In this document: positions 3,574 through 26,000 of the stretch, piece after piece
Layout: every line of letters begins with the position of its first letter
How positions within the stretch are numbered: the stretch's first letter is position 1
Origin: a virus
Length of the DNA: 49,325 bases
Direction: 5' to 3' (one strand)
IMG/VR virus record: IMGVR_UViG_3300022200_000068
Location: 1 to 49,325 of that record
Translations under genes and position numbers: made by a program
Notes under the pieces: generated by a model
Told to the model about the DNA's origin: nothing
Databases searched by the model: none
What the model saw: the letters and a program-made list of their open reading frames with translations, nothing else

Positions 3574-5913
3574 CTAACTCCACACGTAGTTAACGCGTTT
3601 GACTTCCCGGCGCTGCGGCTTGCCGAACGCCGTGCCCCGCAGCTGGTTGCCCTCTATCACCATGCACGCGTACTGACACGCGTCGGCGCTGTGGCTGAAC
3701 TCGTTTTTCTCCGGTTTTGCCGACGCCTGTCCCTTGCGGTTCAACTCGTAACGATACCCGTGCCGAAACCCTTGTATCACCACCCGACACTCGGGGTTTA
3801 TCTGGAACACCTGTTTGCCGCCTATGTTGCTCGACAACAGACGCTCGACGGCCCCAATGCGCGGGTCTATGCGGTTGCTCGCTGGCTTGGCCACCTGAAA
3901 CCCCGCCATTTTCACCACATCTATAGGCGTTATCTCGCCCACCTGCTGCTTGTCCCACCCCGCCGGGTCCGCAGCGACGACGAACGTACACCCCGCCCAA
4001 CGGCCTTGGGCCAGCATCGGGCGCAGCTTACGGTCCAAGAACGTATCTATGCTCATATTCTCGCTGGTCAACTCAGCCAGCACGACCACCTGTCCGGTCA
4101 CGTTACGCTGCATGAGCACCGCCGCAGGCGTCCGCCCGAAGTCCAGGCCGATAATCACCGGGTACGCCTCCGAGCGCAGAGGCAGGTAGGGCTTCTTAGC
4201 CACGTGCACGTCGTAGTCGAACGTCTTGTCGTACACCGGCACACCAGACAGCGACCGTCCGTACCTACACCGCAGGTATACGTCTACGTAGTCCTGCGAT
4301 TTGCCGGGGATGATGTCTATATAATAGGTGGGGTCGAGGTTGGCGACGTTGTCCGCATCGGGGTTGATCCACCACTTCGTATCGTCGTAGCCCTCTACAG
4401 GCTCTCCGTCCGGCTCCTCGTTGCGCCTGCTCAGCCACTCGTCGCGGCTGAGTATGGCTGGCGGCTGTATGTGTATGCTCCAGTTCGACGGCGGTTCGTC
4501 CATTTTCTCCTGGTGCCACGTGTCCATATCCGGCATGTTCGTATCGAACAGAGCGCATGAGCGCGTCGGCGTGCCGTCAGCACCAGAGGGGTAGCGTTTG
4601 AGACGAGCCAACAGGCCGTCGACAACATCCGGGTGCAGCTCGCGCCACTCGTTCCCGTACAAGAACGTAATTTCCAACGAAAGTGCACGCTGTACATCCT
4701 GCGGCGTGTCCAACGGCATGAACCACACCTCGAAATCAAGGGTGGTGCCGTCGCTCAGCGGCTGCTTTATATAATAGGACTTCTCGCTCTCCTTCCACGC
4801 ACCCCACACACCCGGCGGGAACCACGCAAAAAAAGTCTTTCGCACCGTCTTGGCAAGCTGGTCAGCCGTGTTACGCACAATGAGTGCGCGAGACTTGCGC
4901 TGCCCTTGGGCATTAGGTTCTTGTTGCAGCGCTAGACTGACCAGATCATGACAGCAGCACACGGACTTGCCGGAGTTGTGGTGGATAGTTCCATCTACGG
5001 TCACATAGTTGTTCGTGTCAAGAACTTGTAAGTCCCAGTAAGTTTCCTTGATGTCCTTCCGACTAACGCTTATGCTAGCGTTAGACCACTCGGGTGTGGA
5101 GTAAGCGTGTGAACAAGAGCGCCCAGCTTGTAGCCGCCTACGCAGACGGCGAACGAAGCTCAACGGAAATTGCAAAAATCGTCGGACTAAGCCCACGGTA
5201 CGTACGTCGGCTGATGCTGCGTCATAACATGCCACGGCTGAAGGAAGGGGCGCAGCACGCTGAAAACAATCACCAGTATAGAGCTGGCCGATCAGTTGAC
5301 CTGGACGGGTATGTGCTGGCGCTCGCTCCAGAAGACCACCCGCTCCTGCGTAAGCGTAATGTCTACGAACATCGTCTGGTGATGGAGAAGAAACTTGGCC
5401 GTTACCTCCATAAAGATGAAGTAGTCGACCACGCAGACGGGCTGACTCTGCATAACACGCCAGAGAATCTACGGCTTTTTCAGTCAAACGCAGATCATCT
5501 GCGTGAGACGACAACGGGAACCCCGCGACGTTGGAGCCAAGAAGGTCTGAGCAACATTGGCGCACGGACTGACCGTGGGCGAAAGATTCGACGGGTCGAT
5601 ATGTACCGTCGGCGCAGAGAAGCTGGTGAAATCCGGCTGCGTCAAATCCTCCTTGCGGCGTTGAAACTCGGTACAGATAGTCCGCACCTTTGGGGAACGC
5701 TCCACCACTTAGAGCCATTTCAAATCGACCCGTCTTCTCGTTCCAGCTTAGAACGCGCATTGGTCGGTCTATACGAGAAATGGGGAGTGGGCCATACTCT
5801 GTAACGACTTCCGTGTCTCCGTGCAGACACCCCACAGGGCCAGCCAGCACGCGCACGTACGCCTCTGACTGCATGAAATCCCACTGAGTGGGCGTAGCGA
5901 CAAACTCCGTCAC
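3574..5913 (-). CDS. terL: Terminase large subunit, interrupted by an intein
   Basis: The reading frame encodes 779 residues, 285 of them an intein (residues 29-313). Joining the flanks gives a 494-residue terminase, a usual length. The join recreates the Walker A loop GPVGSGKS: GPVG lies before the intein and SGKS after it. The C-terminal nuclease half shows RNase H-fold acidic motifs: GLDFG, then AADPAG, then HSADA near the end. The enzyme is the ATP-driven packaging motor and the headful or cos nuclease. Because the intein splits the P-loop, the precursor should be inactive until it splices. The start overlaps the small-subunit stop by 4 nt, and the stop lies just before the portal start. 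Confidence 0.93.
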   Translation of the reverse strand: MTEFVATPTQWDFMQSEAYVRVLAGPVGCLHGDTEVVTEYGPLPISRIDRPMRVLSWNEKTGRFEMALSGGAFPKGADYLYRVSTPQGGFDAAGFHQLLCADGTYRPVESFAHGQSVRQCCSDLLGSNVAGFPLSSHADDLRLTEKAVDSLACYAESARLRGRLLHLYGGNGQVSSPSPDDVRRHYAYAGAGGLLERAPAHTRPGQLIGQLYTGDCFQRAAPLPSAVACYDAASADVRTVGLVRRFLQFPLSFVRRLRRRLQAGRSCSHAYSTPEWSNASISVSRKDIKETYWDLQVLDTNNYVTVDGTIHHNSGKSVCCCHDLVSLALQQEPNAQGQRKSRALIVRNTADQLAKTVRKTFFAWFPPGVWGAWKESEKSYYIKQPLSDGTTLDFEVWFMPLDTPQDVQRALSLEITFLYGNEWRELHPDVVDGLLARLKRYPSGADGTPTRSCALFDTNMPDMDTWHQEKMDEPPSNWSIHIQPPAILSRDEWLSRRNEEPDGEPVEGYDDTKWWINPDADNVANLDPTYYIDIIPGKSQDYVDVYLRCRYGRSLSGVPVYDKTFDYDVHVAKKPYLPLRSEAYPVIIGLDFGRTPAAVLMQRNVTGQVVVLAELTSENMSIDTFLDRKLRPMLAQGRWAGCTFVVAADPAGWDKQQVGEITPIDVVKMAGFQVAKPASNRIDPRIGAVERLLSSNIGGKQVFQINPECRVVIQGFRHGYRYELNRKGQASAKPEKNEFSHSADACQYACMVIEGNQLRGTAFGKPQRREVKRVNYVWS
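4975..5829 (-). mobile_element. Intein in the TerL Walker A motif (285 aa)
   Basis: The insert begins with Cys (block A, CLHGDTEVVT), as class 1 inteins do. It has a block B-like segment with a conserved His (GFHQLLCADGTYRPVE), and it ends with block F and block G features (YWDLQVLDTNNYVTV, then HHN) before a Ser +1 extein residue. These are the residues needed for protein splicing. On the sense strand, about 150 residues between block B and block F look like no known nuclease and are Arg- and Ser-rich. That stretch is the reverse complement of the HNH gene on the other strand. The intein is therefore a mini-intein on one strand with its endonuclease on the other. Confidence 0.9.
5109..5804 (+). 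CDS. HNH homing endonuclease, encoded antisense inside the TerL intein
   Basis: The 231-residue protein has an N-terminal helix-turn-helix (about residues 15-40, SSTEIAKIVGLSPRYVRR). An HNH_3-type nuclease domain follows at about residues 86-123 (YEHRLVMEKKLGR, then EVVDHADG, then TPENLRLF). The C-terminal part (about 165-196) is basic and resembles tails I recall from phage HNH proteins. I choose GTG 5109 because GGAG lies 7 nt upstream; GTG 5094 is in frame but has no such site. The whole gene lies within the intein and runs against terL. From about 5560 rightward it overlaps, on the other strand, the intein's own splicing domain (blocks A to B). It would cut intein-free terL alleles and so drive homing. 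Confidence 0.87.
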   Translation: MNKSAQLVAAYADGERSSTEIAKIVGLSPRYVRRLMLRHNMPRLKEGAQHAENNHQYRAGRSVDLDGYVLALAPEDHPLLRKRNVYEHRLVMEKKLGRYLHKDEVVDHADGLTLHNTPENLRLFQSNADHLRETTTGTPRRWSQEGLSNIGARTDRGRKIRRVDMYRRRREAGEIRLRQILLAALKLGTDSPHLWGTLHHLEPFQIDPSSRSSLERALVGLYEKWGVGHTL

Positions 5914-6365
5914 GCTTCTATCCAGTCAATATCGTTGGCAGGCATGTTGATAACCGTCTCGTGCCTTGCACCTCCTGGCGCAACTATGGTGAACGTGAGC
6001 GCCGGACCTGTCTGTGCGGAGTTATCTTTAGGCTCCAGGTTAGCCAGCTTAGCCAACGTCTTGAACGCCTCTATGCGTGTGTTGCCCGGCATATCAGGGT
6101 CGTGAATAACATCCCGCATCTGCGGCAACGAATCGTGTACGACTTTTCTGCACCGCGCCCTGAAGGCTGTCCCGTCGTCATCTACCGCCTGCTTCGCAAC
6201 GAGCAACTTCTGATTGAACAACACATCCTGCTCGTACGCACGTATAGCCTCTGGGTCAAGACTGTATGTGTGGCACACGTCATCGAACGACTCCGTACCG
6301 ATTGCTACATCAATAAAGAACCGCTCAGGGATATCGTCCAGGTTATAAGAGACTAACGCGCTCAT
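5910..6365 (-). CDS. terS: Terminase small subunit
   Basis: The 151-residue protein lies directly upstream of terL, with a 4-nt stop/start overlap, in the usual packaging-gene order. It is helical and acidic at its N-terminus, where a segment (FDDVCHTYSLDPEAIRAYEQ) could form a DNA-binding helix-turn-helix. A middle segment (TRIEAFKTLAKLANLEPKD) is typical of small-terminase-like proteins. The C-terminus is beta-rich. The small subunit recognises the packaging site and regulates TerL. No strong ribosome-binding site precedes ATG 6365. It appears to be the first gene of the leftward late operon. Confidence 0.8.
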   Translation of the reverse strand: MSALVSYNLDDIPERFFIDVAIGTESFDDVCHTYSLDPEAIRAYEQDVLFNQKLLVAKQAVDDDGTAFRARCRKVVHDSLPQMRDVIHDPDMPGNTRIEAFKTLAKLANLEPKDNSAQTGPALTFTIVAPGGARHETVINMPANDIDWIEA

Positions 6366-7044
6366 ATCACCAAGTTTACGATCTGCGCAAGAGGTTTACA
6401 AGGTGGGGTTAATCGCCGGTAGGATTGAGATTCCAGTGTGGCTGGTTGCTTGTGGGGTTGTAGCTAACACAGCTAGTTGCCGGTAAGAACGTACTTCTTA
6501 AAACCGATTTTTTACAAATCATGTGAGAGGCATGGGTAAGTGGGGGGCAGGGGGTGCCGGTGGCCTGGGTCCGGTGGGGTCTGTGACAAACCGCCTAGGG
6601 TGAAGGGCAAGCCGTAAGAAGCCTAGTGAGGCGCGGCCCAACCTTCTAGCTGATCTTGCCTGATAGGATTCGGAACGCGCGGCCCAGGTTGCGGGCCAAA
6701 CCGGGGTGCCGGTATGCGCGAACCGACAGGTTCCGGGGGTCAGTGAAGCCTGTAGCCGGTCCGATTCGGCACAGGTTCCCTAGATGGAGGCAACTGGTAA
6801 GCCTCGCGCACCGACCACCCGACGGGCTTTGGCCTTATGGGTAACGAATTGAATCACCGTAGCAGAACACTTGGGAAAGAAAGTGACGCCGCTAGCGGTT
6901 AGCCTGCTCAGGATACCCGCGACGCACAAAGCCCTACCTTATAAACGCGGGCCGCTCTAGGTAGTCCGCTAGCACGCGAAGCGTTCCGACCTTAGCTAGT
7001 ACGCTACGGTATGGGAAACGCCAAACCGACCTATAGGAAACGAT

Positions 7045-13168: not shown

Positions 13169-13960
<792 letters not shown>

Positions 13961-13982
<22 letters not shown>

Positions 13983-15106
13983 CGGAAGCTATCAGCGCAG
14001 TGTTGGCTAGCCCAAAGACGGCATTCTTTGCTGTGTATCTCATGCAGCGTATGCAGATTAAGTATGACCCAGCGGTTAAGACAGCACGCACTAACGGACG
14101 CGACATCGTGGTTGGTGACTGGTTCTGCGGGCTGAACACTAAGCAGGCCGTGTTCGTGCTGGCTCACGAGATACTGCACGGAGTGCTGGACCATATGCCA
14201 CGCGCTGAGCTGTACCGACAGCGGGGGTTCGGCATCGACCTCAAGCCGTTCTCCGACCAGCGTGCCAACAAGGCGATGGATGCTGTTATTAACGCAGCAT
14301 TAGTTGAGGCACGTATCGGTGAGATGCCGGAGGGCGGGATATTCCGCAGCCGAGACGACGCGGATAAAACCTGGGACGCCATCTACCCAGAGTTCGAGGA
14401 GGACGAAGAAGACGAAGGGTTCGACGAGCACGAACCAGCACCCGACGGTGCCGAAGAAGGTGACGCTGACCATAAGCAAGCGCTGCAGCAAGCGGTGAAC
14501 GCAGCCAAGGCGCAGGGCACACTGCCCGGTGCCATCGGTAGGATGGTGGAGGAAGTGCTTAACCCGACGCAGCCGTGGGTAGATGTGCTGCGTGACTTTG
14601 TCACTAACTGCACAGGGAGAGACGAGACCAGCTACCGTAGGCTGAACCGTCGCAGGCTGGTGACGCCCCCTAACTTGGCGTTGCCGGGGTACGACGGGCA
14701 CCATCTGGACACTATGGTGGTTGCTATAGATACGTCAGGGTCCATCTCCGACAGAGAGATGAGTGCCTTTACCGGGGAACTGGCAGGCATCATCGAGGAC
14801 GTCAGCCCCCGTGAGCTGCACGTGATCTGGTGGGACACTGAGGCTGTCGCTGAGCTTATCGAAGACGGGACGGTGGACGATTTGGATCAACTCGAAGCTT
14901 ACGGTGGCGGCGGCACGAGCTACGACTGCGTGCCTAAGAAGATCGACGAACTGGGCATCGACCCGGACGTGGTGGTTTGCTTTACAGATGGGTATGTTAG
15001 CTGGCCCGGTGCCGACACTATCCAATGGCCACACATAACAGTGTCAACATCTACTAACGGCGCACCCTTCGGTGCCAACATACAGGTAGAGGTAAGCAAT
15101 GGATAA
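13961..15106 (+). CDS. Metallopeptidase-like plus VWA-domain protein (DUF2201-like)
   Basis: The 381-residue product starts at ATG 13961, with GGAGA 6 nt upstream. The N-terminal domain has a zinc-peptidase signature, HEILH (residues 69-73) followed by DH. A very acidic linker (about 143-170) follows. The C-terminal VWA-like domain has a MIDAS motif DTSGS at 256-260, a GGGGTS loop, and CFTDGY near the end. This layout matches VWA-like metallopeptidases that pair with MoxR ATPases, and that ATPase is nearby. Whether it cleaves protein is unknown. A longer frame that reads through the repeats as Arg/Leu/Gln is a shadow. Confidence 0.85.
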
Positions 15107-15296
15107 ACCCAAGTCATACGCTGGTTTATTGGCTGGTGTCGGTCGGTACTGGGGCCGATGCACTATCGCCGACCGCACAGGCATATCTAAGACGGACCAA
15201 TACATGCTGCTGAGCGGCCAGATGAAAGAACCGCGCACCAGCGGGCAGCGTGTAGCAGTGCACCGGGCGTGGAAAGAACTCTACTGGGATGAATAA
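15099..15296 (+). CDS. 65-aa small, possibly HTH protein
   Basis: ATG 15099 overlaps the end of the VWA gene, with GAGGTAAG upstream. The middle (IADRTGISKTDQYMLLSG) could form a helix-turn-helix, and the rest is basic and aromatic. It may be a small regulator, but the match is weak. It is 65 residues long, and the next start overlaps its end by 8 nt. Confidence 0.55.
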   Translation: MDKPKSYAGLLAGVGRYWGRCTIADRTGISKTDQYMLLSGQMKEPRTSGQRVAVHRAWKELYWDE

Positions 15297-15480
15297 TATG
15301 CGCTACACGATTGATGTAAAAGTGACGGGGTATGCGAGCGTCGAGGTCGACGCTGTCAGTTTGGAAGTCGCAGAGGAGGCGGCAGCTAATGACGTGTTGG
15401 CTAACTACTCAGTGTCAGAACTGCGGTGGAAAGAGCTGACTACTACGACGCTGACGTCTAACGAGATTTCAGGAGGGTGA
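15289..15480 (+). CDS. 63-aa beta/helix protein, unknown
   Basis: It starts at ATG 15289 or, equally likely, at ATG 15298. The opening (MRYTIDVKVTGYASVEVDA) reads as beta strands and then a helix (EVAEEAAANDVL). This resembles small phage proteins in which a beta hairpin precedes a helix, but no family is assigned. The stop lies 1 nt before the start of the next 23-codon gene, whose AGGAGG lies inside this gene. Confidence 0.6.
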   Translation: MNNMRYTIDVKVTGYASVEVDAVSLEVAEEAAANDVLANYSVSELRWKELTTTTLTSNEISGG

Positions 15481-15481
15481 T

Positions 15482-15553
15482 ATGAGACGGCAAGTTATCG
15501 ACGGCGCTGCCGCTGAAATCAACGATAAATTGGAGCGTGGGCATGACTACTAA
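15482..15553 (+). CDS. Possible 23-aa micro-gene
   Basis: A strong AGGAGGGTGAT precedes ATG 15482. The frame encodes 23 residues (starting MRRQVIDGAAAEIN) and overlaps the next gene's start by 11 nt. The excellent ribosome-binding site argues that it is translated, either as a real peptide or to couple translation to the downstream gene. Confidence 0.45.
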   Translation: MRRQVIDGAAAEINDKLERGHDY

Positions 15554-15722
15554 CAGGCGCAACGAAGTGTGTAAAGAGATCAGGCACCTGCTGAGCCAAG
15601 CAGCGGACTTGAGCGCTAAGATGTGGACGGACGATGACTCGTACGACTTGGTCATGGCGCGTAACTTTCTGCTGGCACTTAACAGCCGACACAAGAAAGA
15701 GGCGAGCGATGACGCATCTTGA
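15543..15722 (+). CDS. 59-aa helical protein
   Basis: It starts at ATG 15543, with GGAGCG upstream, inside the end of the micro-gene. The product is helical and charged (for example EIRHLLSQAADLSAKM, then YDLVMARNFLLALNSR). It overlaps the next gene by 14 nt. The function is unknown. Confidence 0.55.
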   Translation: MTTNRRNEVCKEIRHLLSQAADLSAKMWTDDDSYDLVMARNFLLALNSRHKKEASDDAS

Positions 15723-15891
15723 GTACATAAAAAACCTAATACCTTACGCAGACCTGTGGATGCAGGAGCAGATAGCCGCAGAACTGGAGGTGCGGGATGA
15801 AAAAATCACAGCGTTACGACTCGCTGTGCGGGAGCTACGCGAGCGAGTGGCAGAGCTGTCCGCTGAGGGCGCAGCCAATGAGGGTCCATAA
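15709..15891 (+). CDS. 60-aa coiled-coil protein
   Basis: ATG 15709 follows GAGGCGAG. The C-terminal half is a clear amphipathic helix (DEKITALRLAVRELRERVAE), probably a dimeric coiled coil. Proteins of this kind are common filler genes in phage early operons. It overlaps the next gene by 14 nt. The function is unknown. Confidence 0.58.
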   Translation: MTHLEYIKNLIPYADLWMQEQIAAELEVRDEKITALRLAVRELRERVAELSAEGAANEGP

Positions 15892-16393
15892 CACAATTAC
15901 GGAAAACTGGGATTGGGCAGACGATATATTCGACCGCTTTCTGGCGGACACAAAACGTGTCGGCTTGAGGTTCACAGGCGTAGAGCGCCAAGAGAACCCG
16001 GACGGTACGACGCGGCTGCTTGTACACGGTTGGGTTAACGTGCCAAACCTGTTGAAAAAGATGCCTGCGGTTGTCGCTCCGCTATCCGTGATTCACCATT
16101 TTCTGTCAGTGGGTGGGGAGATATACGCGGACTTTTTTCCTCACTACAACGGAAGCGGGGTACGCCTGTCCGTAGAACACACTAACTACGCAGGGTTGGT
16201 CGATGCATCGGTGCCAATAATAGCTGCAAGCCTGGACGACTGGTGCGACGAGCTGCGGGATGACATCGACACGCTCGCGGTCAAGCTGCGGGACATCATA
16301 AACGGATACGTAGGCAAACTCGCTGACTCACTGGACGATGAGCTTGCGTACCTGGAGGCTAACGAGGTGCAAAATGCAGACAGTCGTGGTTGA
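15878..16393 (+). CDS. 171-aa early protein, unknown
   Basis: I start at ATG 15878, with GAGGGC upstream; a longer frame from 15797 overlaps the previous gene fully. The N-terminal half looks like a beta domain (RLLVHGWVNVPNLL), and the C-terminal half is a long acidic helix (DWCDELRDDIDTLAVKLRD). It overlaps the DNA polymerase gene by 20 nt. No family is recognised. The location suggests a replication-associated role. Confidence 0.6.
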   Translation: MRVHNTITENWDWADDIFDRFLADTKRVGLRFTGVERQENPDGTTRLLVHGWVNVPNLLKKMPAVVAPLSVIHHFLSVGGEIYADFFPHYNGSGVRLSVEHTNYAGLVDASVPIIAASLDDWCDELRDDIDTLAVKLRDIINGYVGKLADSLDDELAYLEANEVQNADSRG

Positions 16394-18275
16394 CTACGAG
16401 ACGTACTGGTCGCAGACATACAGCCTCAGTAAACTCACACCGATAGAGTACGTGTTCGGCGATGAGTTCGAAGTGCAGACCTGCGCTACGAAGATTGGCA
16501 CTGAACAGACGATTTTCACTATCGGCTACCAAGAAACCAAGGCGCTGTTCAACACTATAGACTGGGATAACTCAGCGCTGATAGGGCACAATGCCAGCGG
16601 GTTCGACCATTTGATATCCCGGTTCGTGTTCGGGGTTAAGCCGAGGCTGTGGCTGGACACGATGGACATGGCACGCCCGTTCGATGCGAAGTTTGGGCTT
16701 TCTCTGAAAGCTCTGGCGAAACGGTACGGGCTGCCGGACAAGGGGTCGTTGGAGACGGTCAACACTAAGGGCAAGCGGCTGTCTGAGTTCACGCAACACG
16801 AACTGCAACTGATGCGCGAGTACAACGTGCAGGACACAGACATAACTTATGAGCTGTTCCGCATACTGCGTAAGAAGACCAGCGCCGACGATCTGCGGCT
16901 TATAGACCTTACGGCTCGAATGCTGCTGTTTCCTCAGTTCGAAGCTGACACTAACCTGCTGCAGCGGGGGCTGGCAGCGGAGCGCAACCAGAAACAACGG
17001 CAACTTTTGCACCTTGCGAAGCTACTCAACGTCGAGAGCGCTGAAGAAGTCCGCGCTATGTGTGCGTCGCAGCCGAAGTTCAAAGCGTTGTTGGAGTCTC
17101 TCGGTGAGTGCGTACCGACTAAGACCAGTCCGAGGACAGGCAAAGATATACCCGCTATCGCTAAGACGGACAAGGCGATGGAGGCGTTGTTGGAGCACGA
17201 CAACCCGACGGTCGCAGCTGCCGCCCAGGCACGTATCGGGGTCAAGTCCACGCAGTTGGAGAGCCGCATAGAGCGGTTCCTCGTGGCAGCTGACGCGTTC
17301 GGCGGGCGTATGCCTGTCCCGTTACGCTATGCCGGTGCCGACACGACACTGCGTTTCTCAGGGACATTCAAGCTGAACATGCAGAACTTGCCGCGCATAG
17401 GAAAGAAACCAGCTATATCCGACGTGCTGCGGCGCAGTCTGCGTGCGCCGGAGGGATATAAGGTTGTCGTTGCTGACGAGTCCGCTATCGAGCTACGCGT
17501 CAACCACACGCTGTGGCAAGTCGAGGACACCATGCGTCGATTCAAGGAAGACCCAAAGGCTGACGTATATAAAGCGTTTGCAGCGGTGTTGTACTGCGTG
17601 AGCATAGAAGACGTTACCAAAGAGCAGAGGTTCTCGGGCAAAGTCGCTCAGTTGCAGCTGGGGTATAGGTCCGGTGCCGCCAAGCTTGCCGACGCAGCAC
17701 GTATCATGAGCGGCGGCGCAGTTACAATGAGTCTGGAGGAAGCCAAGCAGATACTGTGGGCGTGGCGCACCGAGTATAAAAACATATACGACGCGTGGCG
17801 TACGCTGGACGAGGCGATAGTTCGTATGGATGCCGAGGACAATATGTTTCCTCTTGATGAGTGGGGGCTGTGCTACGCGTCCAAGCACGGCATAAAAACT
17901 CCCAAGGCCGTGCTGACTTACCCAGGCTTAACGTATAAGGCTAACGACAACGGGCACTCGGAGTGGTACTACAAGTCCAGCCGAGGTATGAAGAAGATAC
18001 ACGGCGGGGTTTTGTGTGAGAATCTCTGCCAACACTTAGCCGGGCAGGTTATGCGCGATGCTATACTGGCGTTTGACAGAACTGCGTTAGGTAAGAAGTA
18101 TAAGCTAGCACATCAAGTACACGACGAGGCTATCTACGTTGTCAAAGACAAGGACGCGCAAGCAGTGTTAGACCAGCTACAGGAGTGTATGCGTAAACCA
18201 CCCGACTGGTGGCCTGAGTTAGTCACATGGTCGGAAGGCGCATACGCTCAGGATTATGGCTCCGTAGAGAAATAA
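16374..18275 (+). CDS. Family A DNA polymerase with 3'-5' exonuclease domain
   Basis: The 633-residue product starts at ATG 16374. Exo motif I is VDYETYW near the start, exo II lies in IGHNASGFDHL, and exo III is near VQDTDITYELF. The polymerase half carries motif A (VVVADESAIELRVN, about residue 365), motif B (VAQLQLGYRSGAAK, about 425) and motif C (HQVHDEAIYVV, about 580). All catalytic acids are present. Motif A has ESAIELR where many family A enzymes have YSQIELR. There is no 5'-3' exonuclease domain. This is the replicative polymerase of the phage. Confidence 0.93.
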   Translation: MQTVVVDYETYWSQTYSLSKLTPIEYVFGDEFEVQTCATKIGTEQTIFTIGYQETKALFNTIDWDNSALIGHNASGFDHLISRFVFGVKPRLWLDTMDMARPFDAKFGLSLKALAKRYGLPDKGSLETVNTKGKRLSEFTQHELQLMREYNVQDTDITYELFRILRKKTSADDLRLIDLTARMLLFPQFEADTNLLQRGLAAERNQKQRQLLHLAKLLNVESAEEVRAMCASQPKFKALLESLGECVPTKTSPRTGKDIPAIAKTDKAMEALLEHDNPTVAAAAQARIGVKSTQLESRIERFLVAADAFGGRMPVPLRYAGADTTLRFSGTFKLNMQNLPRIGKKPAISDVLRRSLRAPEGYKVVVADESAIELRVNHTLWQVEDTMRRFKEDPKADVYKAFAAVLYCVSIEDVTKEQRFSGKVAQLQLGYRSGAAKLADAARIMSGGAVTMSLEEAKQILWAWRTEYKNIYDAWRTLDEAIVRMDAEDNMFPLDEWGLCYASKHGIKTPKAVLTYPGLTYKANDNGHSEWYYKSSRGMKKIHGGVLCENLCQHLAGQVMRDAILAFDRTALGKKYKLAHQVHDEAIYVVKDKDAQAVLDQLQECMRKPPDWWPELVTWSEGAYAQDYGSVEK

Positions 18276-18336
18276 CCGCAGGTGTAGTAGAGTTAAGGTG
18301 CAAGCACGATGTTGTACACACACACACGAGCACACC

Positions 18337-18873
18337 ATGAGCACACTACACGAAATAAAAAAGGCGGCGGACTGGCTGGTGTCTGTAGAAGACTATAGGT
18401 CAGTGAAGCGTGAGGTTGTCACGCTGTCGAAGACTGCCAGTGGCGTATTCGCTGGCGACTTGGCGGTGTTAAACCCACTGGTAGACCTTGGTCGGCGGCG
18501 TGGGTTGGCGAAACTGAACGCAGTGCTGCTGTTAGTGGAGAACGCCAGAGCACCGTCAGGTGGTGACGATAGAAAACGCAGATACCAACGAGTGCACATG
18601 CGTGCCAGACGGCAGCGGCTGTCAAAAGCCGTGCAGCTGTACGAGAAAGTCACTGGCAAAGAGCTGACAGCCGAAGACAAGTCCCAGCTGCGGCACAGTC
18701 TGCAGGCAGCGTGGATGGCGCAACGTGACGAGGTACTGGAAGGCACAGACGACCTGCCAAGGTCGGACAAGAGCCGGTTGATCGAGCTGTTCTGGGAAGA
18801 AATCGAGTCAGATTTAGACGCTGGCTTGACTGAGAACAACGAACAGCGTGCAAGAAAAGTGTTAGGGTTATAG
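18337..18873 (+). CDS. 178-aa helical basic protein
   Basis: It starts at ATG 18337; a longer frame from 18298 runs back over a CA-repeat tract. The product is helical and highly charged, with a basic middle (DRKRRYQRVHMRARRQRLSK) and an acidic end. It could bind nucleic acid. It lies between the polymerase and the PD-(D/E)XK nuclease, which suggests a role in replication or recombination. No family is recognised. Confidence 0.62.
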   Translation: MSTLHEIKKAADWLVSVEDYRSVKREVVTLSKTASGVFAGDLAVLNPLVDLGRRRGLAKLNAVLLLVENARAPSGGDDRKRRYQRVHMRARRQRLSKAVQLYEKVTGKELTAEDKSQLRHSLQAAWMAQRDEVLEGTDDLPRSDKSRLIELFWEEIESDLDAGLTENNEQRARKVLGL

Positions 18874-18882
18874 GAGTTTCAT

Positions 18883-19584
18883 ATGCCTGCTTGGAGTTAC
18901 TCTGCTCTTACAAGCTACGAGACGTGCCCACTGAGGCACTACGAGACAAGGGTGGCGAAGACTACCCACGACAAGAAAGGTGCCCCGGCATTGCTAGGAG
19001 ATGCCGGGCACAAAGCGCTTGAGCTGCGTGCGTCGCGTGACGTACCTATCCCGAAGGTAATACAAGTGACCGACGCCGACGGCAAGACTGAGTCGATGCC
19101 AACTCACGGATGGGAGAGCACCATCGAACGCGTGCTTCAGGCACCGGGCGAGCTTGTTGTCGAGCGTAAGATTGCGCTTAACGATAGATTTCAGGAGACT
19201 GATTGGTTCGCAAAAGATGCGTGGGTTCGGGGCATCATCGACTTCGGTAAAATCAACGGCGATAAGGCGCTGCTGCTCGACTGGAAGTCAGGAAAGCGTA
19301 AGCCTGATCTGGATCAGTTAGAGTTGTTCTCAGCGTTCGGGTTCCACGTGTGGCCTGCGTTAGAGAAAATCGTGACTGGGTTTGTGTGGTTGAAGTCTAA
19401 CGCTATAGATAAAAGTCGCTACTCCCGTGCGGACTTGCCAAAAATTTGGGACAGGTTCCTACCCAGAGTCGCTAAGTTATTTCGTGCGTACGAAGACAAC
19501 AAATGGGAACCCAGGCCGTCGGGGTTATGCAGGGCGTGGTGCCCGTGTACCGACTGTAAGTACAACGGACGACATGGAGAATAA
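18883..19584 (+). CDS. PD-(D/E)XK nuclease, Cas4/RecB-like
   Basis: The 233-residue product starts at ATG 18883. It has RGIIDF and LLDWKSGK (the D, then DxK, of the PD-(D/E)XK core), followed by DQLELFS (a QxxxL-type motif). A Cys near the start (YETCPLRHYE) and three or four Cys near the end (CRAWCPCTDC) resemble the four-cysteine iron-sulfur site of Cas4/AddB-like nucleases. It probably makes or trims DNA ends for recombination. Its neighbours are replication genes. Confidence 0.85.
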   Translation: MPAWSYSALTSYETCPLRHYETRVAKTTHDKKGAPALLGDAGHKALELRASRDVPIPKVIQVTDADGKTESMPTHGWESTIERVLQAPGELVVERKIALNDRFQETDWFAKDAWVRGIIDFGKINGDKALLLDWKSGKRKPDLDQLELFSAFGFHVWPALEKIVTGFVWLKSNAIDKSRYSRADLPKIWDRFLPRVAKLFRAYEDNKWEPRPSGLCRAWCPCTDCKYNGRHGE

Positions 19585-19589
19585 CAAGA

Positions 19590-19733
19590 ATGTCTGAGCT
19601 GATGTGGTTAGAACCAGAGGAACTTATCGCTATGGTAGCAGAAGGCAGCAGCGAGCTGGAGCGAGCCCTTGCGCAGAAGCTGCGCGAGGCGTTGGTTGTC
19701 CTTGCTGAGTTGGAAGCTGCCTATGACACCTGA
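19590..19733 (+). CDS. 47-aa acidic protein
   Basis: A 47-residue frame from ATG 19590, with GGAG 10 nt upstream, overlaps the VRR-NUC start by 11 nt. It is a single acidic helix (SSELERALAQKLREALVVLA). It may couple translation of the nuclease. No function is recognised. Confidence 0.5.
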   Translation: MSELMWLEPEELIAMVAEGSSELERALAQKLREALVVLAELEAAYDT

Positions 19734-20058
19734 AGGGCGGGTGAAAAAACAGGTAAAACAGTGGCTCGAAGACCACGGTGCCTACTACTACATGCCTATG
19801 CAGAACGGCATGGGTAGGTCAGGCATACCTGACTTCATTTGTTGCTTACCCTGGCTGAACGGGCGCATGGTGGCTATCGAAACCAAAGCTCCCGGCAAGC
19901 GGAGCAACACCACGCGCAACCAGGACCGAGAACTGCGTAGTATAAACAAAGCGGGCGGGCACGCTGTTGTCGTCGACGACGTGTCACAGCTCGCGGCACT
20001 GGAGGCTGTGTATGCTGGTAAAACCGAAACACAAAAAGCTGATACTGAACCTGCGTGA
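19723..20058 (+). CDS. VRR-NUC domain nuclease
   Basis: The 111-residue product starts at ATG 19723. It carries the catalytic pattern of VRR-NUC: an N-terminal EGRVKK, then SGIPDF, then AIETKAPG and a downstream Gln (NQDRELR). Phage VRR-NUC proteins are short, stand-alone domains that usually sit next to an SNF2-like helicase, as here; the helicase starts at 20012, inside this gene. A role in cleaving branched DNA is likely from the family. Confidence 0.88.
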   Translation: MTPEGRVKKQVKQWLEDHGAYYYMPMQNGMGRSGIPDFICCLPWLNGRMVAIETKAPGKRSNTTRNQDRELRSINKAGGHAVVVDDVSQLAALEAVYAGKTETQKADTEPA

Positions 20059-21565
20059 CCCGACCAAGGTCACAAACGTCCTACCCACCGCTGGCACGAT
20101 ACTCTATAAAGGCGTAACACTTACCGTCGTGCCACACCGCACGCAAGAGGTACGAGTGCTGCGTAACCTGGGCATCAACGCGCCCAGCCCGATGGACTAT
20201 TACTACAGCTGGCCGATACGCCACGGCTGGGCACCGATGGAACACCAAAGAACCACGGCGACGTTCTTAGCCAGCCACAACAGAGCGTACTGTTTGAATG
20301 ATCTGGGTACTGCGAAGACGCTCAGTTCTCTGTGGGCCTACGACTTCCTAAAACAAGAGGGGTCCGTCGACAAGCTGCTGGTTGTCTCGCCACTGTCTAC
20401 CGTCGAGCGCACCTGGGCGGATGAGATATTCACTAACCTGCCGCACCTGTCCCATGTAGTAGTGTATGGGTCGCGGGAGCAAAGACATAAGCTGCTTAGC
20501 GAGGATGTCGACGTCTACATCATAAACCATGACGGTGTAAAGGTTGTTCTTGACGCACTGGAAAGCATGAAATTCAGCTGTGTCATTATCGACGAGCTGG
20601 CGCAGGTCGCTCGCAACTCAGGTACGGATCGCTGGAAAGCACTGAAACGTGTAACCAAAGACAGCTCGGTGGTGTGGGGTCTGACCGGCACGCCGATACC
20701 GAACGAACCGACGGATGCGTGGGCACAGTGCAGGCTGCTTACACCATCGACGGTCCCTGCGTACTACAGCCATTTCCGCTCACGAGTCATGCAGCAGGTG
20801 GCGACCTACAAGTGGGTGCCAAGAGACGATGCGTTGGACGTAGTGCATGAAGCGATGCAGCCGGGCATACGGTTCAAGCGCGACGAGGTGATAGACCTTC
20901 CGCCAATTATGTATGAGACACGGCAGACGCCGCTGACCGTCGAACAGAAACGCATGTTCGACGAGATGACCAACGAGCTTTACACAGAGTACAAGGGGCA
21001 CGGGATATCCGCTGTCAACGAGGGCGTAAAAGCCATGAAGCTCGTGCAGATATGCTGCGGGTCCGCTATAGGCGATAACGACACCATCGTCGCACCACCT
21101 AAGCACCGGCTCATAGAACTGGTCAACGTCATAGAGGAAGCGGCGGCGAAGGTCATCGTGTTTGTCCCGTTCCGCGCACCGCTGGCGATGATAGCCGACG
21201 TACTGTCCAAGCGGTACGCAGTGGAGCAGATACATGGCGGGGTAGGTAAGACTGAGCGCAGCAGGATATTCAAAGCGTTCCAATCATCTCACGGTGGGGC
21301 GCAGGTGCTGGTCGCTCAGCCCGCTGCGATGAGCCACGGCCTGACACTGACCGAAGCCAACGTGATCGTGTGGTTCGCGCCGGTCAACAGCGCTGAGATT
21401 TACGAGCAGGCCAACGGGCGTATCACTCGGCCCGGACAGAAGCACAACCAGTTCATCATCCACCTGCAGGGGACGTGGCTCGAAGCCAATATGTACAAAC
21501 GGCTAAAGAACAAGAGCGATATGCAGGGTGTGTTGCTCGATATGTTCAAAAAGGGGGTTGACTAA
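20012..21565 (+). CDS. SNF2-like superfamily 2 helicase
   Basis: The 517-residue product starts at ATG 20012, with GGAGG upstream. Motif I (NDLGTAKTLSS) is a variant of the usual DEMGLGKT. Motif II is VIIDELAQ, motif III is LTGTPIP, and the C-terminal domain ends with motif VI (EQANGRITRPGQKH). This matches phage SNF2-type translocases, thought to remodel DNA during replication or recombination, and it pairs with VRR-NUC. All core motifs look intact. Confidence 0.9.
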   Translation: MLVKPKHKKLILNLRDPTKVTNVLPTAGTILYKGVTLTVVPHRTQEVRVLRNLGINAPSPMDYYYSWPIRHGWAPMEHQRTTATFLASHNRAYCLNDLGTAKTLSSLWAYDFLKQEGSVDKLLVVSPLSTVERTWADEIFTNLPHLSHVVVYGSREQRHKLLSEDVDVYIINHDGVKVVLDALESMKFSCVIIDELAQVARNSGTDRWKALKRVTKDSSVVWGLTGTPIPNEPTDAWAQCRLLTPSTVPAYYSHFRSRVMQQVATYKWVPRDDALDVVHEAMQPGIRFKRDEVIDLPPIMYETRQTPLTVEQKRMFDEMTNELYTEYKGHGISAVNEGVKAMKLVQICCGSAIGDNDTIVAPPKHRLIELVNVIEEAAAKVIVFVPFRAPLAMIADVLSKRYAVEQIHGGVGKTERSRIFKAFQSSHGGAQVLVAQPAAMSHGLTLTEANVIVWFAPVNSAEIYEQANGRITRPGQKHNQFIIHLQGTWLEANMYKRLKNKSDMQGVLLDMFKKGVD

Positions 21566-21610
21566 CAAACTAACACAGATTAACATAGCTAACACTTTAA
21601 GGAGAGCGCT

Positions 21611-21994
21611 ATGTCTAACATAGAAGAAGACGTAAAGAAATTTGTAGCGATAAGAAATAAGAAAACGGAGATCGCGGCAGAACATAAGGACGTGATGGGG
21701 CGTATTAACAAGGCACTGGATACCCTCAAGGCTCGCATTCGAGAGAAGCTGCACGAAGCCGGTGCCGAGTCGGTACGTACTCCCGCTGGAACGTGCTATC
21801 TTTCTGTAAAGACATCGGCGAAAGTCGATAGCAGGGACGCGTGGATAGCCTTCGTGGAGGGAAACCACGCGTGGGACTTCGTCGAGTCCCGCGTCAACGC
21901 AAAAGCAGTAGAAGCATACCTCGAAGAAACCGGCGAACTCCCGCCAGGGGTAGTGCTGTCCCGGTTTGAAGACATCGGCGTGCGCCGTTCTTAA
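21611..21994 (+). CDS. 127-aa coiled-coil protein beside SSB-like gene
   Basis: ATG 21611 follows AAGGAG. The N-terminal half is a charged coiled coil (EIAAEHKDVMGRINKALDTL), and the C-terminal half is a small fold (for example SVKTSAKVDSRDAWIAF). Proteins of this shape often lie next to the phage SSB and recombinase genes, but I cannot name the family. It may be a recombination or host-nuclease factor, by analogy only. Confidence 0.65.
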   Translation: MSNIEEDVKKFVAIRNKKTEIAAEHKDVMGRINKALDTLKARIREKLHEAGAESVRTPAGTCYLSVKTSAKVDSRDAWIAFVEGNHAWDFVESRVNAKAVEAYLEETGELPPGVVLSRFEDIGVRRS

Positions 21995-22007
21995 TCTAGG
22001 AGACGTT

Positions 22008-23036
22008 ATGAGCAACATCATCCCTTTCAACACTGACTCCGCCAACCTGCCCGCATATGTCAAGCGTGCTCGTGGTAACACGGCTGACCTGACTAACGGC
22101 GTAGGTGGTGGGTTCGCCCGTTTGTCCATCAAGGGTAAGAGCTTCACCGTCGTGCGGGGGCGCGACGACAAGAAAACCCTGATGAATCCAAAAGACCCCG
22201 ACAGCCCAGCCAGTTACATCGGTGTTGTGGTTGTCGCTGCTAGCCCGAGCCTGAGCAGGACTTACTACGCCAAGACGTTCGACGACACTGGGGCTGACGT
22301 AGCGCCCGACTGCTCCAGCGCTAACGGCGATAAGCCTGACCCCGGCGTATCCAGCCCACAAGCCAAGAGCTGCGCAACGTGCAAGCACGCTGTGTATGGC
22401 ACGGGGACTGGGGGTAAAGGGTTCCGCTGCTCTAACCACCGCAGGCTGGTAGTCACTAAGCCTGGGGCGTACACCGAGGACGACATTATGCTGTTGTCCG
22501 TGCCGGGTGGCAGCCTCAAGAACCTTGCGTCGTTTGCGAGGGCTATCGGCCAGCGTGGGTTTGACTATGAAATGGTTATAACTAAGCTGAGTTTCGATTC
22601 GGCGGAAGCGACGCCCAAGCTGGTGTTCGAGCCCTACGGCCTGCTGTCTAACGACGCTTATGAGGAAGTCGAGGTGTTGCGCGACTCCGACACCGTTAAG
22701 CAGATTCTTGGCAGCGGCGGCGGCATGACAGGCAACGTCGACACCCGCTCGAACGACGAGAGCGAAGACGAGGCAGAGGAGCTGCCACCCGCTGCCAAGA
22801 AGTCCAAGGCAACGCCGAATAAGTCCAAGGCAACGCCGAAGAAGGCTGACCCGACGCCGGAGATCGACGAAGACGAGTTGGCCAGCGTGCTTGGCGAGGA
22901 CACCAACGAGGACGACGAGTCCAACGTCGTGGAGATCGAAGCCAAGAAGCCCAAGGCAACGCCGAAGAAAGCCAAGAAGAAAGATGTAGAGGAGGCAGAC
23001 GAGCTGGACGATCTGCTGGCTGAATTCGACGCCTAG
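22008..23036 (+). CDS. SSB-like protein with zinc-finger and acidic tail
   Basis: The 342-residue product starts at ATG 22008, with AGGAG upstream. A beta-rich N-terminal part (ARLSIKGKSFTVVRG) leads to a CATCKHA cysteine pair and a later Cys/His pair, probably a zinc site. The C-terminal third is a repeated KATPKK linker ending in an acidic tip (DELDDLLAEFDA), like the protein-interaction tail of SSBs. It probably coats single-stranded DNA. Its place between replication genes supports this. It could be another DNA-binding protein of the replisome. Confidence 0.7.
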   Translation: MSNIIPFNTDSANLPAYVKRARGNTADLTNGVGGGFARLSIKGKSFTVVRGRDDKKTLMNPKDPDSPASYIGVVVVAASPSLSRTYYAKTFDDTGADVAPDCSSANGDKPDPGVSSPQAKSCATCKHAVYGTGTGGKGFRCSNHRRLVVTKPGAYTEDDIMLLSVPGGSLKNLASFARAIGQRGFDYEMVITKLSFDSAEATPKLVFEPYGLLSNDAYEEVEVLRDSDTVKQILGSGGGMTGNVDTRSNDESEDEAEELPPAAKKSKATPNKSKATPKKADPTPEIDEDELASVLGEDTNEDDESNVVEIEAKKPKATPKKAKKKDVEEADELDDLLAEFDA

Positions 23037-23052
23037 TCTACACCACCCTGCT

Positions 23053-23080
23053 GCCCCGGTTCGTCCGGGGCTTTGCTTTC
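23053..23080 (+). terminator. Intrinsic terminator between SSB-like and primase genes
   Basis: GCCCCGG at 23053-23059 pairs with CCGGGGC at 23065-23071 across a TTCGT loop, followed by a T-rich stretch (TTTGCTTTC). It lies 17 nt after the stop of the SSB-like gene. It may end or attenuate transcription before the primase-helicase gene. Confidence 0.75.
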
Positions 23081-23093
23081 TAAGGGACCAGCC

Positions 23094-26000
23094 ATGCAGA
23101 CGATAGACTTTTTACGAGCGATACTGCCGAGCGAAGGGTGGTACTACTCTTGTGAGTGGATACCAAAACCTGAGTACAAAACAAAAGGGTTCTGGAAAAA
23201 CACACCGCACGACAGCTTGGAGTCGCTGGCGCAGGCGTTAGAAGATTCATCGCAGCGAGGCATCAACGCTTATATGTCGTTAGCGGGGTTCGCCCAAGAT
23301 GCGTATTATGAAGAATACAACGGGAAAGAAAAGCGTAAGACCCGCACCCAAGACAACGCGGAGCGGTTCAAGTGTATGTGGCTGGACATCGACGTCGGTG
23401 CCAGTGGCACGTCTAAGCCATTCAGCTCACAACGAGAAGCACTGCAAGCTCTGATCGGATTCGTCAACGACAGCGGGCTGGCGAAACCTACGTACATCGT
23501 AAGCTCCGGCTACGGGCTGCACGTTTACTGGGTGTTCGACAGAGAGATCAGTAAGGACAAGTGGTCGTGGCAGGCGCAGCGCGTTAAGGACATCGCGCAC
23601 AGTATGGGGTTCTCGCCTGACGACAGCCGAACAACAGACTCAGCCAGTGTGCTGCGGCCTGTTGGGGCGAACAACTATAAAAACCCAGACGACCCAAAAC
23701 CTGTAACCGCGCTGCACCAGGGCGCAATAGTCGACACGAAACAATGGTTCACGGCGCTGTATGAGCAGCACAAAGCACTGAACATAAAAACAAAGACCGT
23801 AACCAAACGCCGCAGAGTATCGCACAACGACGACCTGACCGGCGGTATGACAAGCGTGCCGAGTTGCGCGGAGCAGCTGGCAGACAAATGCCCGACCATA
23901 CGGGCTATGCGCGACTCTCGCGGCGCTAACCACACAGAAGGCATGGAGCCGCTGTGGCGGGCCTGTCTTGGTGTGCTGCTCTACACGGAGCAGGGCGACG
24001 CTGTGTGTCACGAGTGGTCCGAAGGGCACCCGGAGTACGACGAAGACGCGTGCCAAGCTAAGATCGACGCACGGCGCGATACACCGCCATCTCTATGCAG
24101 CACGATACGGGACATGACTGGCAATAAATGCCAAGACTGTCGGTACGAAGTCAATACGCCTATCGTGCTCGGCTACCCGGAGCCTACCCAAACCGAAACT
24201 GAGGAGCTGGAAGACGGCACAAGTGTTCCGCTACCTACGCTGCCCCCGGTGTTGAACCGCGATTTTCGGTTCGATGTAGCCCAAGGTGGGCTCATGTGGA
24301 GAGCGCCGCTTAAAGAAGTGAAAGGCGACGCGGCACCTGCGCGGGACTGGGTGTGCATATGCTCGGCCTTAATAACGCTGGAGTACCTGTACACAGACAC
24401 AGACGGTGAGCACTACGCACACCTGAACATACGAGCCAGACCCGGCGTCGTTGAGATGTGCGATATAAAAGTGTCACAACTAGCCCAAGGCGGCACCCAG
24501 CTAATGGGCGCACTGGGCAGTGGTGCTGGCGTCATACCTAACAACCCGAAGGGAGTGACCCGTTTCATGCAGACGTGGTACGACAGCTTACGACAGGGCA
24601 GCGAGCTTCAGACGATGCGCCGTCATATGGGGTGGCAGACTGATGGCACGTTCGTACTAGGCAACCGGATGTACACCGAGGACGGCGAAGTGAAGCGCTG
24701 CACGCTGGCCAAGGGCGTGACCAAGTACGCTGAAGCGCATGAACCCATCGGCTCCTACGAAAAGCAGGTGGCGATGATCGACGCTTTGTACAACAAATCG
24801 CAGCGGGAGGTGTACCAGTTCACCCTCGCCGCATCCCTCGGCGCTGTGCTTTACGTGTTGCTGGTAAACGATCTAGCAGCGGTGCCGATAATCTTGTGTG
24901 GGTCGGAGACGGGCAAAGGCAAGACGACCGTGTGTAAAGCAGCCATAGGGCTGTGGGGCGACCACAAGGGCAACGGGCAGCAGGCGAACGCAGACGGCGT
25001 CACCGAGTTCGCGCTGTACGTAATGGCGGGCATACGCAAGCACCTGCCCATGCTGGTTGACGAAGCGTCGGACTGGGACGCAGAGCGGTCAGCGAAATTC
25101 GCGTACCGCTTCAGCAGCGGGCAGTCTCGTGTGATGGGTGATCCGTCAGGTGGGCTGCGTGACAACAGCCACCTGAACTGGACGAACTTCATATTCATCA
25201 CATCCAACGAGTCGATCATAGGTAAGGTGGAGGCGACTAACAAGAACCCAGGACCGAAGATCGCACGTTTGTTCGAAGTTCAGGTGCCGGACATAAAGCT
25301 AAACGTGGAGGACTACAACCTCGTTAGAGAACTGCAGAGGAACACGGGGCATATCGGCCCAAGGTTTTTAGAGTACGTCGTACGTAATCTTGGCTATGTG
25401 AAGAAGCAGCTAGAAACAATGTACTCATCGCTGACCAAGAACGTCGACGATGACTCCGGTGCACGTTACTGGCTGCAGACAGCAGCGTGCGTGATAGTGG
25501 CGAACAACATAGCCAACGACATAGGCGTGTTCCACTGGGGCAAGTCGCACCTGACAAAGTGGATCGCCAACCAAGTCCGCACCTTGCGGAGAATCGCCGA
25601 CGACACGCTGAACACCGTGGAAGAAATGACGAGCATGCTGTTCGCCGACATACAGCCGCAGCTGGTCGTCACCCACAAGTGGGGCGACCGTGATAGCCGA
25701 GCAGCGATAAACCCGGAGTTCCCGCCACCGCGTGGGCGCGAGTGCCTTGGACGGTACATCACCAGCACCAACGAACTGTTCGTCACAACCCGCGCCATAA
25801 AAAAGTGGTGTGTAGAGAACAGCATTGCTTACAAAGACCTCGCAAATATGATGACTAACGCCGGAGTCATGCAGAACCCTGGTGCGAAAAAGTCGTTGAC
25901 GGCTGGCACGGCGTTAGGCAGTGTGGGGCAGTCAAGGTGCTGGCATTTGAAGTTCAGCCAGCCGCAACTGCATGTAGTGGAGGTGTCAAGTGGAGCGTGA
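23094..26000 (+). CDS. Primase-helicase (AEP-like primase plus AAA+ helicase)
   Basis: The 968-residue product starts at ATG 23094. The N-terminal part has archaeo-eukaryotic-primase-like motifs: MWLDIDV (about residue 95), SSGYGLHVYW (about 138) and LRPVGANNYK. A cysteine-bearing segment (about 345-355) could bind zinc. The C-terminal half is a DUF927-like helicase with Walker A GSETGKGKTT (about 605) and Walker B LPMLVDEA (about 656). Such fusions unwind DNA and lay down primers in phage replication. The stop overlaps the next gene's start. Confidence 0.9.
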   Translation: MQTIDFLRAILPSEGWYYSCEWIPKPEYKTKGFWKNTPHDSLESLAQALEDSSQRGINAYMSLAGFAQDAYYEEYNGKEKRKTRTQDNAERFKCMWLDIDVGASGTSKPFSSQREALQALIGFVNDSGLAKPTYIVSSGYGLHVYWVFDREISKDKWSWQAQRVKDIAHSMGFSPDDSRTTDSASVLRPVGANNYKNPDDPKPVTALHQGAIVDTKQWFTALYEQHKALNIKTKTVTKRRRVSHNDDLTGGMTSVPSCAEQLADKCPTIRAMRDSRGANHTEGMEPLWRACLGVLLYTEQGDAVCHEWSEGHPEYDEDACQAKIDARRDTPPSLCSTIRDMTGNKCQDCRYEVNTPIVLGYPEPTQTETEELEDGTSVPLPTLPPVLNRDFRFDVAQGGLMWRAPLKEVKGDAAPARDWVCICSALITLEYLYTDTDGEHYAHLNIRARPGVVEMCDIKVSQLAQGGTQLMGALGSGAGVIPNNPKGVTRFMQTWYDSLRQGSELQTMRRHMGWQTDGTFVLGNRMYTEDGEVKRCTLAKGVTKYAEAHEPIGSYEKQVAMIDALYNKSQREVYQFTLAASLGAVLYVLLVNDLAAVPIILCGSETGKGKTTVCKAAIGLWGDHKGNGQQANADGVTEFALYVMAGIRKHLPMLVDEASDWDAERSAKFAYRFSSGQSRVMGDPSGGLRDNSHLNWTNFIFITSNESIIGKVEATNKNPGPKIARLFEVQVPDIKLNVEDYNLVRELQRNTGHIGPRFLEYVVRNLGYVKKQLETMYSSLTKNVDDDSGARYWLQTAACVIVANNIANDIGVFHWGKSHLTKWIANQVRTLRRIADDTLNTVEEMTSMLFADIQPQLVVTHKWGDRDSRAAINPEFPPPRGRECLGRYITSTNELFVTTRAIKKWCVENSIAYKDLANMMTNAGVMQNPGAKKSLTAGTALGSVGQSRCWHLKFSQPQLHVVEVSSGA

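Follow-up and report, generated by a model that had tools for sequence, protein, structure and literature searches.

Terminase locus, intein and nested nuclease

The IMG/VR virus record IMGVR_UViG_3300022200_000068, a phage DNA of 49,325 bases referred to here as the window, carries a gene for the large terminase (TerL) whose open reading frame (ORF) occupies positions 3574-5913 of the minus strand, and an ORF for an HNH nuclease at 5094-5804 of the plus strand. Both ORFs were found where a preliminary description of this DNA had placed them. That description held that blocks A to B of an intein in TerL share their bases with the last 80 residues of the HNH protein. The sharing was confirmed, and it goes further than claimed, as the entire nuclease gene lies inside the intein (Table 1); blocks A-B end near 5600 and not, as had been proposed, at about 5560. 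The insertion falls exactly within the Walker A motif (P-loop) of TerL, with flanks that read GPVG/C...HHN/SGKS, and the N-extein joined to SGKS reads as the Walker A motif GPVGSGKS.

By its Cys1, its block B histidine, its terminal His-Asn followed by a +1 Ser and its predicted HINT fold, the insertion would be a class 1 intein, and splicing of the terminase would be expected from it. Among 70 aligned inteins, Cys1 is invariant (70/70) and so are H284 and N285 (70/70), partly by construction in both cases, given that inteins were located by their Cys and loci were picked by HHN; His68 of block B is also invariant. The +1 residue, Ser in the window, is Ser, Thr or Cys among relatives. A threonine usually stands three residues before the block B histidine (motif TxxH); the window has an alanine there. 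Pfam Intein_splicing (PF14890) is matched at E 0.01 or better by 55 of the 70 alignment members. In the AlphaFold2 model, blocks A-B and F-G reach predicted local distance difference test (pLDDT) values of 93-98, and the middle is disordered, residues 153-208 falling below 50. Foldseek aligned this model with the Ssp DnaB mini-intein (E 1.1e-7, probability 1.00), and its 29 matches at E 0.001 or better are solved inteins and HINT relatives. An RNA (group I) intron was considered and rejected: within 4500-6400 neither an Rfam-recognisable intron core nor any Rfam match at gathering score was found.

The nuclease matches phrog_10730 (E 7.5e-55) and Pfam HNH_3 (PF13392), the latter at 30.2 bits against a cut-off of 24.8, and 75 of 79 alignment members match HNH_3 at E 0.001 or better. 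Its structural model has a mean pLDDT of 89.4, with a helical tail (residues 165-225) at 87-97. The GTG at 5109, which follows a GGAG tetramer, is the more likely start in comparison with the GTG at 5094; a Shine-Dalgarno-like tetramer or longer precedes a plausible start in 68 of 83 representative loci. The basic tail of the protein had been thought to resemble the tails of other phage HNH proteins, a resemblance that was not recovered: a tblastn search with the tail returned nine phage records only, all of them nested, and no tail homologue outside nested loci was found in the phage collection.

Table 1. Features of the terminase locus in the window (positions, strand and remarks)
Feature	Position	Strand	Remarks
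TerL N-extein	5830..5913	-	28 codons to AGPVG; GTG start at 5913
Intein	4975..5829	-	285 residues: Cys1 ... His284-Asn285, +1 Ser
TerL C-extein, starts SGKS	3574..4974	-	Matches phage terminases in tblastn, query residue 313/314 onwards
HNH endonuclease gene	5109..5804	+	231 codons and TAA; inside the intein and antisense to it; GTG 5094 as alternative start
Putative Shine-Dalgarno GGAG	5098..5101	+	7 nucleotides upstream of GTG 5109
HNH_3 catalytic region	5364..5480	+	Pfam HNH_3, nuclease residues 86-124 of 231
Dual-coding core used in tests	5596..5787	both	Minus strand: blocks A-B of the intein (residues 15-78); plus strand: helical C-terminal tail of the HNH protein
Intein filler, residues 79-241	5107..5595	-	Faces nuclease N-terminus and core; stop-free, weakly conserved
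Intein block B region, residues 60-77	5599..5652	-	Invariant His68
Intein blocks F-G, YWDLQVLDTNNYVTVDGTIHHN	4975..5040	-	Without HNH coding; invariant G280, H283, H284, N285

As regards the neighborhood, the nested nuclease is co-oriented with the replication genes (polymerase, helicase and primase, plus strand, 13604-26000) and opposite to terminase and portal; judging from this orientation, its expression might precede that of TerL. Another ORF for an HNH endonuclease, 500 residues long (phrog_1314, E 1.3e-64), lies at 13604-15106 on the plus strand, and the minus strand holds at 29613-36629 an ORF of 2338 residues, which resembles DarB-like antirestriction proteins in its C-terminal part (phrog_10089, E 8.3e-39).

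A nested family with selection on both strands

Relatives of the nuclease that cover at least 80% of the query occur in nine phage records, specifically seven annotated Pectobacterium records, the unannotated Dickeya phage Setonix and Pseudoalteromonas phage PHS3, and in all of them the gene runs antisense to an intein in a terminase. Viral and genome contigs, when scanned, contributed at least 79 further HNH loci, at least 80 intein loci and 6 genome loci; these sets were gathered by similarity, so that the counts given here describe the sets themselves, among the matches listed. A sequencing or assembly artefact was rejected, the arrangement being common to the seven Pectobacterium records, Setonix, PHS3 and two complete bacterial chromosomes.

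The frame antisense to the nuclease is open, always in the same register and over up to 200 codons, in 85 of the 86 HNH-query loci listed (80 viral, including L001, and 6 genome loci). The other two antisense frames are open in none of the 86 and hold 750 and 833 stops. The exception, L181, is not nested and has stops in all three antisense frames. Seen from the intein, 75 of the 80 intein-query loci listed keep an HNH ORF that is 225 codons or longer.

For the tests of selection, a set of 180 loci, less the ten named below, was merged at 95% DNA identity into 98 distinct inteins. Loci L008 and L016 had been excluded from the outset, and 10 of the 180 were dropped before clustering, five with no HHN (L059, L076, L095, L179, L181), two as partial (L002, L096) and three in which no Cys1 was found (L090, L092, L153); when read separately, L059, L076, L095 and L179 are nested as well. 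The positional test comprised the 83 of the 98 representatives that have the nuclease stop within 49 nucleotides of Cys1 and an intein of 250 residues or more; the bin for the last intein residues was left empty by the size filter of this test. In L004 Cys1 was set too far in, so that its stop-to-Cys1 distance is understated. In two loci, L031 and L139, the nuclease ORF passes the intein Cys1 codon into the TerL N-extein and stops 47 and 8 nucleotides beyond it, respectively.

The register of the two genes places codon position 1 opposite position 1 and position 2 of either strand opposite position 3 of the other, which means that no single substitution is silent in both proteins. Under such a geometry, a flat distribution of mismatches over the three codon positions is the prediction of dual coding, and selection on a single strand predicts otherwise. 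In the 0.70 identity bin, the terminase extein (.171/.108/.535) and the nuclease core read on the plus strand (.216/.158/.466) show a third-position excess, whereas the overlap read on the intein strand is flat (.241/.283/.305), with position 1, the one common to both codes, lowest. Opposite the nuclease core, that is, in the intein filler, it is the plus strand that has the codon pattern of a coding gene.

A conditional test was applied to 81 of the 83 representatives, whose overlap contains no indel or stop. One protein was held fixed, synonymous codons were resampled 300 times from the terminase usage of the same phage, and the protein of the other strand was scored against distant relatives. 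Given the intein residues, the nuclease tail attains a mean z of 9.62 (minimum 6.86), and given the nuclease residues, the intein attains a mean z of 10.24 (minimum 7.68); in both directions 81 of 81 sequences lie above all 300 resamples, bearing in mind that test sequences and pairs are related and not independent. With a stricter distance filter, all 60 sequences with enough distant relatives still beat every resample. The values hardly move when the test is conditioned on open frames: the mean z is then 9.64 (75 sequences) and 10.29 (80 sequences), respectively. As a control, 109 antisense windows of the terminase gave a mean z of 0.36 and a maximum of 4.04, with a stop in 99% of them. The filler opposite the nuclease core, given the HNH residues, reaches a z of only 3.27 (57 sequences) against about 10 in the overlap, and is thus mostly passive.

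Closely related sequences point in the same direction. In 78 close pairs, changes that alter both proteins are depleted in the overlap (observed/expected 0.60), while those silent on the intein only and on the HNH protein only stand at 1.23 and 1.50, respectively; sites silent in both proteins are expected 0 times in this analysis. The open frame itself is weak evidence in the window, where it persists in 6.5% of codon-resampled versions. Across the 83 representatives, a mean of 1% of resamples stay open, and 6.2 stops per sequence are expected where none is seen. Moreover, a Phe codon followed by a codon beginning with A, which was expected 66.6 times, occurs 0 times in 291 instances in the 83 nucleases, because such a pair would force a stop in the intein. 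In other words, the case for a selected overlap is made by the family and not by the window alone.

These data bear on the view that the nuclease tail is no more than a shadow cast by conserved blocks of the intein, with a functional nuclease that ends after its core and a tail ORF that is open by accident. It is true that conserved blocks A-B do constrain the strand opposite, and that in a clade of relatives described below the nuclease ends before block B. However, when the intein is fixed and its codons are resampled, similarity to the tail falls to near zero and a stop appears in 87% of resamples on average, as opposed to the z of at least 6.86 observed in 81 of 81 sequences. Furthermore, the third positions of the intein are not free within the overlap, and close pairs are slightly more tolerant of substitutions that change the intein and are silent in the tail than of the reverse. 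This explanation is accordingly considered very improbable, and a shadow ORF on either strand was rejected on the positional, conditional-resampling and open-frame tests. The proposal of the preliminary description, that a splicing domain and a nuclease are encoded by the same bases, is supported for this subfamily, with both strands under selection across 5596-5787. The comparison of variation on the two strands that it had suggested shows a pattern that is neither minus-only nor plus-only, and the constraint on the sense strand alone that would have spoken against it was not seen, each protein being conserved beyond what the other forces.

Signs of transfer, short tails and decay of the nuclease

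A recent episode of transfer is suggested by two bacterial loci, an Enterobacter cloacae prophage (L177) and Escherichia coli MEI003 (L185), which are 92.2% identical in intein DNA and 71.3% identical in the adjoining C-extein. In this pair, third-position mismatch amounts to.612 in the extein and, for the central part of the intein, to.185 on the nuclease strand. The terminase of E. coli ET729, which shares about 88% identity with the E. cloacae terminase, is free of the insertion and has an uninterrupted GFGSGKT (site GFG/SGKT); the terminase of Serratia phage Smarc2 also lacks it. The contrast between intein and extein identity and the presence of an empty site fit recent horizontal transfer by homing. 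At extein identities below 20% the nucleases still average 46% identity, many of the host terminases being too diverged to align well.

The overlap is not found throughout the family. Seven nucleases with short tails (L003, L004, L093, L094, L095, L179, L180) form one clade (support 100/92), and six more (L070, L076, L080, L082, L086, L089) stop at points in between. Relatives that keep the intein and have a nuclease ending short of the overlap had been named in advance as evidence against dual coding; they exist, together with L175, which has no intact nuclease at all, and they indicate that the overlap is not generally needed by either partner, but the two-strand constraint in the 81 long-tailed sequences stands. 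As for the effect of truncating the tail, the data at hand are natural variants, in which short tails occur with inteins retained. Either the tail is a lineage-specific extension into blocks A-B or it was lost in the short-tail clade, the only outgroup of the tree sitting on a very long branch.

The homing cycle includes the decay of endonuclease alleles, and decayed alleles were observed. Locus L175 holds an intein of 143 residues, from which the nuclease core and N-terminus have been deleted with the N- and C-terminal splicing blocks kept; L169 has a stop within the nuclease N-terminus and an intact intein frame; and in L088, L091, L160 and L162 the N-terminal part of the nuclease is missing or altered, the intein frame again being intact. 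These alleles fit a homing cycle. They would also be expected if the overlap were degenerate, that is, a former nuclease gene decaying within a domesticated intein. Against this stand the HNH ORFs of 225 codons or more in most of the intein-query loci listed, together with the third-position excess in the core, a mark of purifying selection that the recent E. cloacae/E. coli pair shows as well, and general decay of this kind is given little credence.

Least probable of all is the converse notion that only the nuclease is real and that the TerL frame across the insertion encodes a non-splicing loop, as in the published out-of-frame HNH insertions of ShiLan type, which have no splicing domains (PMC11855218), for, despite a disordered and weakly conserved filler, Cys1, His68, His284 and Asn285 are invariant, the HINT fold matches solved inteins, L175 retains both terminal splicing blocks after deletion of the nuclease core, and the insertion breaks the ATPase P-loop of the packaging motor.

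Interpretation and comparison with known systems

The preferred reading, to which we assign a probability of roughly 0.88, is a mobile intein in the P-loop of TerL with an HNH homing endonuclease that is encoded within it on the antisense strand and not as an in-frame domain. Read on the minus strand, the element would yield a HINT splicing domain with its halves joined by largely disordered filler, and excision from TerL would leave GPVG-SGKS. Read on the plus strand, it would yield a helix-turn-helix, HNH and helical-tail nuclease, whose predicted cut at the P-loop of intein-free TerL genes would spread the element. In the region of the nuclease core, mainly the plus strand is under protein-level selection, the filler mostly just staying open, and in blocks A-B the same bases serve the helical tail and the splicing domain, both of them selected.

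Several observations weigh against a mobile antisense-encoded endonuclease of this kind. The intein of the window, taken alone, scores 14.1 bits against a Pfam intein cut-off of 35.8. When the HNH model was searched with Foldseek, the HNH homing endonuclease I-HmuI (PDB 1u3e) ranked first, with a probability of 0.94 and yet an E value of 0.27. A consensus search of 4500-6400 for a sigma-70-like promoter of the antisense gene found none. Identities of HNH protein and extein correlate (0.81), which suggests that much of the descent may be vertical. Finally, short-tail and intermediate relatives keep their inteins without the full overlap.

A further and more tentative possibility, which we hold to be somewhat short of an even chance, is that these elements make up a distinct class of mobile inteins, in which splicing domain and homing endonuclease occupy opposite strands, no substitution is silent in both, and the sharing of bases may slow decay of the nuclease. 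Specifically, the C-terminal domain of the nuclease would be tied to a splicing domain that the phage cannot lose, and decay in the homing cycle may be slowed as a result. Such a lock is at most partial, because the nuclease core or N-terminus is still lost in the six decayed alleles.

Long antisense dual coding with both proteins demonstrably selected is rare. About a hundred diverged sequences in the register of maximal mutual constraint make ideas on overlapping genes directly testable, and mobile inteins can carry an endonuclease where standard annotation does not look. As to existing annotation of such loci, the RefSeq annotation of E. coli MEI003 (L185:3026-5313) includes the nested HNH gene and treats the terminase as an incomplete pseudogene without N-terminus, and the frame of terminase plus intein is in fact open over 802 codons. 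In PHS3 (L007:1688-3666) the GenBank terminase starts inside the intein and the HNH gene is listed, the terminase N-terminus being lost from the annotation. No nuclease is listed at the nested locus in any of the seven annotated Pectobacterium records.

The endonucleases of mobile inteins are usually domains in the intein's own frame. The element described here differs in that the nuclease is a separate gene of the opposite strand, as found in 85 of the 86 HNH-query loci listed, which shares bases with the splicing blocks. No description of an endonuclease gene lying antisense to an intein came to light in the literature searched, most subscription papers and bioRxiv preprints being outside its reach, and within that scope the architecture is one that we did not find described for a mobile intein.

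Terminase inteins are common in mycobacteriophages, according to the portion of PMC5050341 consulted, and they resemble the present element in their splicing domain, their insertion in the ATPase domain of the terminase and their sporadic horizontal spread; the main text of that paper contains neither 'antisense' nor 'opposite'. As for the nuclease, its similarity to I-HmuI is limited to 94 alignment columns. The nearest published case found is the ShiLan element (PMC11855218), in which an HNH gene lies in the third frame of the same transcript, in an insertion of a phage methylase with no splicing domain detected. This element and the Pacc40 insertion resemble ours in their selfish mode of spread and in that a stop-free stretch inserted into a phage gene conceals an HNH gene in a second frame. 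They differ in that the HNH gene is on the same strand and no splicing domain was detected, whereas here the strand is opposite and a HINT domain is predicted; 'antisense', 'opposite' and 'complementary' do not appear in the main text of that paper. A separate observation concerns Cylindrospermopsis phage Cr-LKS3 (L182:956-2806), where a DNA methylase coding sequence and an HNH relative (1501-1845) share a strand but not a frame, possibly a hidden HNH gene of ShiLan type in a cyanophage. Lastly, some group I introns, for example Dsq.L2066 of Didymium, also have a homing endonuclease gene opposite a self-splicing element (PMC9548176, in the part consulted). In that case, however, the host is a ribozyme and the endonuclease gene sits in a peripheral insertion, so that no protein-on-protein dual coding arises, in contrast to the shared blocks A-B of the TerL intein.
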